Both the position numbers and the translations under genes were made by a program. Positions 25,792 through 56,801 of a stretch of 64,000 nt of DNA are shown piece by piece. Position 1 is the stretch's first letter. Every line of letters begins with the position of its first letter. Below the pieces are notes generated by a model. That model worked only from the letters and a program-made list of their open reading frames with translations, did not search any database and was not told the DNA's origin. Source of the stretch: an uncultured beta proteobacterium (GTDB taxonomy: Bacteria > Pseudomonadota > Gammaproteobacteria > Burkholderiales > Burkholderiaceae_C); assembly GCA_903876715.1 (NCBI GenBank), contig CAIRBF010000289.1:1-64000 (forward strand). The letters are read 5' to 3'.

Positions 25792-25876
<85 letters not shown>

Positions 25877-49431: not shown

Positions 49432-50529
49432 TCACGTCAGAGTGGTGTCGACCTCGCGACGCTGCAGCGCGAGGAACTCGGCAGACTGCATCTCGCGCAG
49501 ACGCGAGACGGTGCGCGGAAACTCGTGCGCCAGCGGGCCCTCGGTGTACAAGGCCTCGGGCGCCACGGCCGCCGACAGCACCAGCTTGACGCGACGGTCA
49601 TAGAACACGTCGACGAGCCAGGTGAAGCGCCGGGCCTCGCTGGCCATGCGTGGGGGCATCTGCGGGACGTTTGACAACAACACGGTATGGAAGCGACTCG
49701 CGATCTCCAGGTAATCATGATTCGAGCGCGGCCCGCCGCAAAGCGCGCGGAAATCGAACCAGACCACACCGCCAGCGCGACGCACAGCGTGGATCTCGCG
49801 ATGCTCGATGTTCAACACGGGCGTCTCGTCGCGCGTCTCGGCCAGCGCGTCGAAGGCCCGCCCCATGGCTGCCTCGGCCGCTTCACCCAGTGGGCAGTGG
49901 TAAACCTCGACCTGCTGCAGCGTGCGCTGGCGGTAGTCCACGCCCGCGTCCACATTCACGACCTCCAGGTGCTGCTTCAGCAGCTCGATCGCAGGAAGGA
50001 TGCGATCCCGGTGCAAGCCATTCGGGTACAGCCCGTCGGGGTGGAAGTTCGAGGTGGTGACGATACTGACCCGGTTCGTGAACATCGCCTCGAGGAGGCG
50101 GTGCAGGATCATCGCGTCGGTCACGTCGGCAACGTGGAACTCGTCGAAGCAGATGAGCCGGAAGCGCCGCGCGATTCGCCGGCCGAGTTCGTCCAGCGGG
50201 TTGACCGTGCCCTTGAGGTCCTGCAACTCGCGGTGCACCTCACGCATGAACTCGTGGAAGTGCAGTCGCGTCTTGCGTGTCAGCGGCACGGCCTGGAAGA
50301 AGCAGTCCATCAGGAAGCTCTTGCCGCGGCCCACACCGCCGTGCAGGTAAACGCCACGCGGCAGAGACGGGCGACGCAGCAGCTTGGTGAGGGCGTTGCT
50401 GCGCTGCGCCTTGTAGTCTGACCACTCACGCTCGCAGCGCTCCAGCGCATCGACAGCGCGCAACTGCGCCGGATCGCTGCGGTAGCCCCGCGCGGCGAGC
50501 TCGGCCTCGTACATGGCGCGCACGCTCAC
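49432..50529 (-). CDS. zapE: Cell division protein ZapE (AFG1-like ATPase)
   Basis: GVYLHGGVGRGKSFLMDCFFQAVPLTRKTRLHFHEFMREVH, LICFDEFHVADVTDAMIL. Confidence 0.93.
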   Translation of the reverse strand: MSVRAMYEAELAARGYRSDPAQLRAVDALERCEREWSDYKAQRSNALTKLLRRPSLPRGVYLHGGVGRGKSFLMDCFFQAVPLTRKTRLHFHEFMREVHRELQDLKGTVNPLDELGRRIARRFRLICFDEFHVADVTDAMILHRLLEAMFTNRVSIVTTSNFHPDGLYPNGLHRDRILPAIELLKQHLEVVNVDAGVDYRQRTLQQVEVYHCPLGEAAEAAMGRAFDALAETRDETPVLNIEHREIHAVRRAGGVVWFDFRALCGGPRSNHDYLEIASRFHTVLLSNVPQMPPRMASEARRFTWLVDVFYDRRVKLVLSAAVAPEALYTEGPLAHEFPRTVSRLREMQSAEFLALQRREVDTTLT

Positions 50530-53477: not shown

Positions 53478-56336
53478 TCACTTGGTCAGGACGAAGCCCT
53501 TGAGCTTGCCGAACGCCTGGTCGAGCAGCGCCTTCTGCTGCTCCTGGTGGAGGTGCGAATAGCCGACCGCGGGCGACGCCGACGCCGGGCGTCCGGCGTA
53601 GCCGAGCTTCTGGCCCTCGAGCATGTTCTCGTGGATGTAGTGCTGCACGAAGAACCAGGCTCCCTGGTTCTGCGGTTCGTCCTGACACCACACCACCTCG
53701 ACGGCGTTCGGGAAGCGCTTCATCTCCGTGGCGAAGGCCTTGTGCGGGAAGGGATAGAGCTGCTCCACACGCATCACGGCGACATCCCAGGCCTTCTTCT
53801 CGTCACGCTTTCTGATCAGGTCGTAGGCGACCTTGCCCGAGCACACGATGACGCGCTTGACCTTTTCGCCCTCGACTTCCGTGCGCGTCGGCCCGATGAC
53901 GGTACGGAACTCACCCCTGGTGAACTCGTTCAGGGGCGAGGTCGCGTCCTTGGCTCGAAGCAGCGACTTCGGCGTGAAAATGATCAGCGGCTTTCGGAAC
54001 TGCCGCACCATCTGCCGCCTCAGCAGGTGGAAGATCTGGCTCGCCGAGGTCGGTTGGCAGATTTGCATGTTGTTGTCCGCCGCCAGCTGCATGAAGCGCT
54101 CCAGGCGCGCGGAGCTGTGCTCCGGGCCCTGGCCCTCGTAGCCGTGGGGCAGCATCAGCGTCAGGCCGTTGACCCGACCCCACTTCACCTCGCCCGAAGC
54201 GATGAACTGGTCGATGACGACCTGCGCTCCATTGGCAAAGTCGCCGAACTGCGCTTCCCAGATCGTCAGCGTGTTCGGCTCCGCGCTCGCATAGCCGTAC
54301 TCGAAGCCGAGCACCGCCTCCTCTGACAGGATGGAGTCGATGACAACGAATGGCGCCTGCCCGTCGGCGACGTTCTGCAGCGGGATGTAGGTGCCCTCGT
54401 CGTAGCGCTCACGGTTCTGATCGTGCAGCACCGCATGCCTGTGGACGAAGGTGCCGCGGCCGCAGTCCTCGCCCGACAGGCGCACGGCGTAACCACTGGC
54501 CACGAGCGAGGCGTAGGCCAGGTGCTCGCCCATGCCCCAGTCCACGTTGATCTCGCCCCTGCCCATCGCGGCGCGGTCGGCAATCACCTTTTCGACGAGC
54601 GGGTGGACCTTGAAGCTGCCAGGCACGGTGGTGATTCTCTCGGCCAGGCGCTTGACCTCGGCCAGCGGCAGCGCCGTGTCGGCGGCGTCGGTCCACTTGC
54701 GGCCGAGGAAAGGGGCCCAGTCGACAGCGTACTGGCTCTTGAAGTTCGTCAGCACCGGGTCGACCGTGTGCTTGCCTGCGTCCATGGCGGCGCGGTAGGC
54801 CTTGACCATTTCGTCGGGGCCACCCGCCATCAGTACACCCTGAGCGACAAGCTTGTCGCCATAGAGCTTGCGCGTCCCGGGGTGCTGCGCGATCTTCTTG
54901 TACATCAATGGCTGCGTCAGGCTCGGCGTGTCCTGCTCGTTGTGGCCGAGCTTGCGGAAGCAGACGATGTCAACGACGACGTCCTTCTTGAACTGCTGAC
55001 GGTAGTCCATCGCCCACTGCGTGCACAGGACCACGGCCTCGGGGTCGTCGCCGTTGACGTGCAACACCGGGGCCTCGATCATCTTGACGACATCGCTGCA
55101 ATACAGCGTCGATCGCGAATCGCGCGGGTCGCTCGTCGTGAAGCCGATCTGGTTATTGATGACGAGATGGACCGTTCCACCGGTGTAATAACCGCGTGTC
55201 TCGGCGAGCGCGAGTGTCTCCATCACCACGCCCTGCCCAGCAAAAGCCGCGTCGCCGTGCACCAGCACGGGCAGCACCTGAGAGCCGGCCTTGTCACCGC
55301 GGCGCTCCATACGTGCCTTGACCGAGCCCTCGACCACGGGATTGACGATCTCCAGATGCGACGGGTTGAAGGCCAGACTCAGGTGCACAGGCCCGCCAGC
55401 AGTGCTGATGTCGCTGGAGAAGCCCTGGTGGTACTTCACGTCACCGGCGGGCAGGTTCTCGGGGGCCGTATGGTCGAACTCGGCGAACAGGTCGCGCGGC
55501 ATCTTGCCCAGCGTGTTGACGAGCACGTTCAGGCGCCCGCGGTGCGCCATCCCGATGACCATCTCCTGCACGCCGTGGGCGCCTGCGCGCTGAACGACCT
55601 CGTCCATCGACGCGATAAAGCTCTCGCCGCCCTCGAGCGAGAAGCGCTTCTGGCCGACGTACTTGGTGTGCAGATACCGCTCCAGGCCCTCGGCCGCGGT
55701 CAGTCGGTCGAGGATATGGCGCTTTTCGTCGGCACTGAACGCCGGCTTGCTGCGCACGCTCTCGAGCCGCTGCTGCCACCACCGCTTCTCGGTCGGATCG
55801 GTGATGTGCATGAACTCGGCGCCGATGGTGCCGCAGTAGGTGTCCCTCAAGGCCTGCACGATCTCGCGCAAGGTCATGTGCTCGGCCTTGCTGAAGTAGG
55901 TGTTCGCAGCCGAGAACGTGATGTCCATGTCGCTCTCGGACAGGTCGTAGAACGCCGGTTCGAGCTCAGGGATCTTCGGGCGCTCAGTGCGCTTCAGGGG
56001 GTCGAGATCGGCCCAGCGCGACCCCAGGAAGCGATAGGCGGCAATCAAGCTCTGGACATGCACCTGCTTGCGCGCCACCGCGAGATCGGCCTCGCTGGCC
56101 TTGAGGGCGAAGGCGTTCGACTTGGCCCGCTGCGCAAAGGATTCCACGACCGGCGCATGCGCCACGTCACGATTCTCGCTGCCATCGACAGCAGGCACGT
56201 GCTGCAGGCGATCGAAGTACTCGCGCCAGTTGTCCGGCACGCTGCCCGGGTTGTCGAGATAGGCCTCGTACAACTCCTCGACATACGGTGCATTGCCTCC
56301 AAAAAGATAGGAGTTGCCCCTGTATTGCTGCATCAT
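53478..56336 (-). CDS. sucA: 2-oxoglutarate dehydrogenase E1
   Basis: [42 protein letters not shown]...; thiamine-PP-dependent E1 motifs. Confidence 0.97.
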
Positions 56337-56340
56337 GTCT

Positions 56341-56451
56341 CGCTCACCTCTCACGCCGGTTTCCGGCGCTCCGATGGGTTGATGAACCTTCCGCGCCCCC
56401 GGCTGCGCCGGGTGGCGGATTGCGATCCGCCGCCTGACGCTTGCGCGTCAA
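56341..56451 (-). promoter_or_regulatory. Structured sucA 5' leader with several tandem hairpins (candidate sucA RNA motif)
   Basis: Perfect inverted repeats 56354-56368 (cgccgg-ttt-ccggcg), 56398-56412 (cccggc-tgc-gccggg), 56414-56431 (ggcggat-tgcg-atccgcc), 56435-56450 (tgacgc-ttgc-gcgtca), immediately upstream of the sucA start. Confidence 0.65.
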
Positions 56452-56801
56452 GCCGACGTCGGCAAAGACTGCCCGAATTCCACGCAGGACTTTAGCATCC
56501 GACCTGCCCAAGTGCTCCTGACGCAAGGATTGGAACTCATCAATGTCCGCAGTTTCCTGACAAGGAATGCGTGGCGGAATGAGCTTGCGCGAGACGTCGC
56601 CGCGCGCGAGCAAACAGACGGCCACGGGTTGGACCAAGGGTGAACTCGATCGCAGGCCCGGGTGCACATCGGCCGCCGGTGACGGCGGTGCACTCCCGAC
56701 ACTGAAGCCCGAGGCTGCGCCGGGGTTTCGGGCTTTCCCCATGCACTGGACGCGGCCGGGGGCCTAGCATTAGCGCTTGGCCGATTTACCAGGAGTTCCC
56801 G

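Follow-up and report, generated by a model that had tools for sequence, protein, structure and literature searches.

Genomic context of the sucA leader

The window, a 64,000-nucleotide stretch of DNA from an uncultured beta proteobacterium, carries the genes sucA, sucB and lpd as a string on its minus strand, with a structured RNA element at the head of the string and zapE (a cell division ATPase; 49432-50529, minus strand) directly after lpd:

56341-56425, minus strand: sucA RNA (RF01070), full length; cmscan, 67.4 bits
53478-56336, minus strand: sucA, 2-oxoglutarate dehydrogenase E1; NCBIfam PRK09404, 1366.7 bits
52109-53374, minus strand: sucB/odhB (E2); NCBIfam PRK05704, 615.9 bits
50588-52015, minus strand: lpd (E3); NCBIfam TIGR01350, 528.6 bits

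The leader of sucA is a true sucA RNA, a further copy of an already known family. Using cmscan with Rfam 15, the stretch from 56425 to 56341 (minus strand) aligned to model positions 1-83 of 83 with an E value of 1.5e-10, its score lying above the RF01070 gathering cut-off of 40 bits, and the 3' end of the element falls 4 nt ahead of the ATG at 56336. This is the single RF01070 match in the window's own genome. At E values up to 1, other Rfam families gave nothing beyond chance-level matches at the sucA leader, and neither sucA-II RNA (RF01758) nor sucC RNA (RF01759) was matched in the window; a tRNA gene (25792-25873, plus strand) is the sole other Rfam match in the window. A first-pass annotation made from the sequence alone had proposed a sucA RNA at this position, as expected before sucA in Burkholderiales, and had named a search with the Rfam model as a check, which proved positive.

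The distribution of the family fits this placement. Within the same GTDB family, 190 of 201 genomes, representing 133 of 141 genera, carry RF01070, as do 36 of 41 genomes of the window's genus and 30 of 250 sampled genomes of the order, the last from at least six families; it was absent from all 14 control genomes. In a comparison of SucA, the nearest named relatives (92% identity) are Beta proteobacterium AAP51 and Rubrivivax species, and the relatives with names belong to Rubrivivax, Aquabacterium and Ideonella.

Previous work has placed leaders of this type among expressed RNAs. In B. cenocepacia, RNA-seq detected transcription of an orthologous 118-nt leader, which was called a probable riboswitch (PMC4603805), and a putative riboswitch is listed for Burkholderia (PMC3521395). 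In Herbaspirillum, the leader was found by RNA-seq to be expressed, at a higher level with nitrate than with ammonium, and was described as a candidate riboswitch with an unknown ligand (PMC7011215), in agreement with the earlier remark that its ligand is not established. By eye, a candidate promoter element can be placed upstream of the window's leader:

56489-56496, minus strand: candidate extended -10, GCTAAAGT

Relatives show TAAAGT, TAGAGT, TACAGT or CACAAT at this place (also by eye), and a promoter consensus scan of the leader returned no sigma-70 match, the candidate -10 included.

Local hairpins and the family fold

All five perfect hairpins that had been read upstream of sucA are present on the minus strand, as seen in the sequence:

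56450-56445 / 56440-56435, minus strand: hairpin 1, TGACGC / GCGTCA
56431-56425 / 56420-56414, minus strand: hairpin 2, GGCGGAT / ATCCGCC
56412-56407 / 56403-56398, minus strand: hairpin 3, CCCGGC / GCCGGG
56388-56385 / 56380-56377, minus strand: hairpin 4, GGTT / AACC
56368-56363 / 56359-56354, minus strand: hairpin 5, CGCCGG / CCGGCG

For the 151-nt leader, the computed folding energy is -73.1 kcal/mol, compared with -57.2 kcal/mol (sd 4.0) for shuffled sequences (z -3.9; 0 of 200 as good). The reading of the array as the sucA RNA holds for hairpins 3, 4 and 5, which are P1b, P2 and the terminal hairpin of the family. Hairpin 1 lies wholly outside the Rfam model. Hairpin 2 straddles the 5' boundary of the model and uses bases of P1. 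The five hairpins together are therefore not the consensus fold. Overlooked in that reading were the long-range helices: P1, the CAUC:GGUG helix over the Shine-Dalgarno sequence (P3), and the outer CGC:GCG helix. The core elements are as follows:

56415-56419, minus strand: P1 5' strand UCCGC, pairing with GCGGA at 56394-56390 (cmscan structure, relatives)
56390-56394, minus strand: P1 3' strand GCGGA, whose end and the next bases, AGG, make up the near-invariant GGAAGG at 56392-56387 (cmscan, relatives)
56398-56412, minus strand: P1b hairpin CCCGGC-GCA-GCCGGG inside P1, CGGC:GCCG in the Rfam model (sequence, cmscan)
56377-56388, minus strand: P2 hairpin GGUU-CAUC-AACC (sequence, cmscan, covariation)
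56345-56376, minus strand: P3, CAUC (56376-56373) with GGUG (56348-56345), enclosing the terminal hairpin (cmscan, covariation)
56354-56368, minus strand: terminal hairpin CGCCGG-AAA-CCGGCG (sequence, cmscan; all 7 pairs covary)
56422-56424, minus strand: outer closing strand CGC, pairing with GCG at 56343-56341 just past the Shine-Dalgarno sequence (cmscan, covariation)
56343-56350, minus strand: Shine-Dalgarno sequence GAGGTGAG (GAGGUGAG) (sequence)

Part of the Shine-Dalgarno sequence lies in the GGUG strand of P3 and thus overlaps a conserved helix, and P3 and the outer helix together surround it.

Covariation in orthologous leaders, which had been suggested as a further check, is present among 97 distinct relatives. 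In these leaders, 92.4% of cells are paired in the Rfam-type structure, compared with 84.5% when shuffled and at most 47.7% when the structure is slid, and the covariation score of the structure is 0.270 versus 0.144 for shuffled alignments and far above that of slid structures. The signal is greatest in the terminal hairpin and in P3, where 81% of cells are paired and three of the four pairs have changes on both sides. P1 and P2 vary little: 99.4% of P1 cells are paired among the 97 relatives, with other, fully paired spellings (UCUGC:GCAGA, CUCGC:GCGAG, UUCGU:ACGAG) occurring farther away. The outer CGC:GCG helix becomes UGC:GCA in several relatives. The core is also strongly conserved at its unpaired positions.

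Upstream strands that could compete with P1

Side-by-side reading of about 97 leaders revealed further strands upstream of the Rfam model (about 170 distinct relatives were compared overall). The corresponding features of the window are:

56432-56452, minus strand: P0 hairpin, with TGACGC-GCAA-GCGTCA at its centre, 5' of the Rfam model (folding; position of a conserved hairpin in relatives)
56414-56431, minus strand: anti-P1 hairpin GGCGGAU-CGCA-AUCCGCC, mutually exclusive with P1 (sequence; window MFE)
56461-56470, minus strand: AGUCUUUGCC, site of the relatives' CCUUCC; degenerate CUUUGC, one mismatch to GGAAGG (leader comparison)

In the Rubrivivax/Aquabacterium/Ideonella group, the P0 hairpin comes after CCUUCC, and its 3' strand GGCGGGU can pair instead with the AUCCGCC of P1. 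Across 86 distinct segments, the P0 of relatives has a mean folding z of -2.3, and 95% of the segments fall below -1; of 86 distinct group-1 leaders, 71 can form anti-P1 with 7 or more contiguous pairs. The window retains P0, and its GGCGGAU:AUCCGCC is a stronger anti-P1 than the GGCGGGU version of its relatives. Because AUCCGCC contains the P1 5' strand, this hairpin (hairpin 2 above) and P1 exclude one another. GGCGG is common to P0 and anti-P1 and UCCGC to anti-P1 and P1, a sharing of strands that, read from the sequence, corresponds in layout to a strand-exchange switch.

The second strand, CCUUCC, is exactly complementary to GGAAGG, a sequence that extends over the P1 3' strand and the P2 5' strand. 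Of 97 leaders, 76 have CCUUCC no more than 60 nt ahead of the Rfam 5' end, compared with 2 of 481 background stretches. When the upstream strand was located regardless of pairing in 185 distinct leaders, 124 had CCUUCC:GGAAGG and 20 had CCUUCC:GGGAGG, in which a U-G pair is kept, while six C-to-U variants retain G-U pairs; the variants CCUUUC, CCUUCU and CUUUCC still pair with GGAAGG. Two leaders show two-sided, in-register changes (L089, CCUCUC:GGGAGG; L038, CCCUCC:GGGGGG), and in-register pairing is broken in L081, L219 and L156 (the last with CCCUCC and GGGAGG). Covariation between these strands is thin, as most sites never vary. Extended pairings occur in the Ideonella lineage, where three spellings (CCUUCUGUG, CCUUUCGUG and CUUUCCGUG) each form 9 contiguous pairs with CGCGGAAGG; in family f4, where CCUUCUGC pairs with GCGGAAGG; and, by eye, in L260, from an RF01070-negative genome, with 7 pairs between CCUUCUG and CAGAAGG. 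The idea that family f4 is Neisseria was dropped, since counts of DNA uptake sequences showed no enrichment.

CCUUCC has been lost in the window, in L113 and L122 of the window's genus and in several other lineages, and is therefore not essential everywhere. Five leaders (L026, L035, L039 of family f18, L088 and L092) have no CCUUCC and, like the window, a strong unrelated hairpin just before the core. Taken together, the comparison points to strong conservation of the upstream strands and gives moderate evidence of their pairing; they look like the anti-core half of a two-state switch.

Diverged sucA leaders

Certain genomes without an RF01070 match still carry a diverged version of the element (family f3), with scores of 18.9-27.7 bits against a model built in this analysis and with CUCGC:GCGAG as P1. 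The f3 leaders L254, L256, L108 and L109 are diverged sucA RNAs that all fall under the Rfam cut-off and are missed or underscored by the model; their P1 is CUCGC:GCGAG or CUCGC:GCGGG-like, and they have large P2 insertions. In L252 and L261 (genus g141), which have no RF01070 match, GCGGAAGG and the terminal elements are kept and the middle is expanded. Three species of genus g34 (L257-L259), also without RF01070, have in common a sucA leader of the form GUCAUCGGACCGCUGUGCG ... GGGUACC ... CACCCACU ... CCAGUGAGC, with P2/P3-like elements and modest folding z values of -2.05 and -0.91. This leader may be a diverged descendant of the sucA RNA or a replacement for it.

A proposed two-state model for control of sucA and its alternatives

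The sucA RNA most likely acts in cis, as a leader of the sucA-sucB-lpd mRNA controlling initiation of sucA translation, and the explanation that we favour by a small measure is a two-state leader. In state A, the core would form P1 (UCCGC:GCGGA), P2, P3 (CAUC:GGUG) and the outer CGC:GCG helix, enclosing the Shine-Dalgarno sequence and turning sucA off. This direction is suggested by the location of the Shine-Dalgarno sequence in P3 and beside the outer helix. In state B, upstream competitors would break P1: anti-P1 (GGCGGAU:AUCCGCC) would capture the P1 5' strand and CCUUCC, where it is present (most relatives, though not the window), would capture GGAAGG of the P1 3' strand, so that the outer helix is lost and the Shine-Dalgarno sequence becomes freer. 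Which of the two states prevails would depend on a signal, such as a metabolite, bound by the conserved core. The window's leader, in which forcing P1 costs 1.5 kcal/mol of ensemble energy, is predicted to be bistable between the P1 and anti-P1 folds. These folds differ by about 4 kcal/mol or less in most leaders tested, and the computed exposure of the Shine-Dalgarno sequence differs little between the states, mostly by 0 to 0.1.

It is an even call whether the functional sucA RNA also exceeds the Rfam model, with the 5' anti-core strands serving as the expression platform for translational switching, for which lineages have found their own solutions. Such a larger element would comprise CCUUCC against GGAAGG and, in the Rubrivivax/Aquabacterium group, also GGCGGGU against AUCCGCC, with P0 holding the competitor, and would allow for the loss of CCUUCC in the window.

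Rather unlikely, in our assessment, is a sucA RNA that is static or that is bound by a protein or small RNA, with neither a metabolite aptamer nor a two-state switch, in which CCUUCC is conserved for another purpose, such as a protein site or initially transcribed DNA. Consistent with this, no ligand is known (PMC7011215), and certain lineages lack CCUUCC with the core unchanged. The overall duplex energy between leader and core is only marginally more favourable than with shuffled leaders (mean z -0.46), and exchanging leaders between species had no significant effect (p 0.12), so a global excess of duplex energy, not significant against shuffles or swaps, was set aside and counts as a limit of the two-state model; pairing comes easily to GC-rich leaders, and covariation is impossible at an invariant site. 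Against a static leader speak the high conservation of unpaired core positions and the complementarity retained by CCUUCC variants, and the distance from CCUUCC to the core, which ranges from -13 to -60, varies so widely that RNA pairing is favoured over a fixed DNA site.

It is improbable that the functional structure consists of the five local hairpins, with P0 and anti-P1 serving simply to keep the leader folded and P1 not forming in the window. These hairpins are exactly the window's unconstrained MFE, but forcing P1 costs only 1.5 kcal/mol relative to the unconstrained ensemble, which holds anti-P1. Moreover, P1 is conserved, takes other paired spellings in distant relatives and is part of the MFE of many relatives.

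That CCUUCC is an anti-Shine-Dalgarno strand masking the ribosome-binding site directly is very improbable and was rejected on pairing and on the absence of co-change: both targets are purine-rich and CCUUCC can form runs of 3-5 contiguous pairs with the Shine-Dalgarno sequence, but in all 102 distinct CCUUCC leaders this is poorer than its 6/6 pairing with the core strand, CCUUCC does not follow the Shine-Dalgarno sequence as the latter varies among groups (GGAGGUC, AAAGGUG, AGAGGUG), and in L038 CCCUCC tracks the core GGGGGG instead.

Relation to known RNAs and significance

The window's leader resembles the sucA RNA of Rfam in its full-length match above gathering, its place directly before sucA in a Burkholderiales-type lineage and the inclusion of the Shine-Dalgarno sequence in the 3' part of the fold. 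It differs in one inserted base in P1b, and its P0 and anti-P1 strand, like the relatives' CCUUCC, are not covered by the 83-position model. Two other candidate structured RNAs bear related names: sucA-II RNA (RF01758) from Pseudomonadales, likewise named for sucA but of another order, and sucC RNA (RF01759) from gamma-Proteobacteria, named for a neighbouring TCA-cycle gene (PMC2864571); both differ from the present element in having no match in the window.

The proposed mechanism has parallels among known regulators. Translational riboswitches, such as those of the SAH and preQ1 classes, sequester the Shine-Dalgarno sequence. The sucA leader is like them in having a conserved core beside competing strands and a Shine-Dalgarno sequence held in a helix; it differs in that ligand binding and the direction of switching are only proposed for it. 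The literature that we searched names neither a ligand nor the upstream strands, a limited search that is not proof of novelty; the element family itself is already known, and the conserved competitor strands outside the Rfam model seem to be new.

This orphan riboswitch candidate occupies a central node of carbon and nitrogen metabolism in a large order of bacteria. Constructs that end at the Rfam boundary would, in a ligand search, miss the strands that resemble the switching half. It is these conserved competitor strands that deserve to be followed, and the full leader, together with mutations in CCUUCC, GGCGG, GGAAGG and CCGCC, would allow a direct test.
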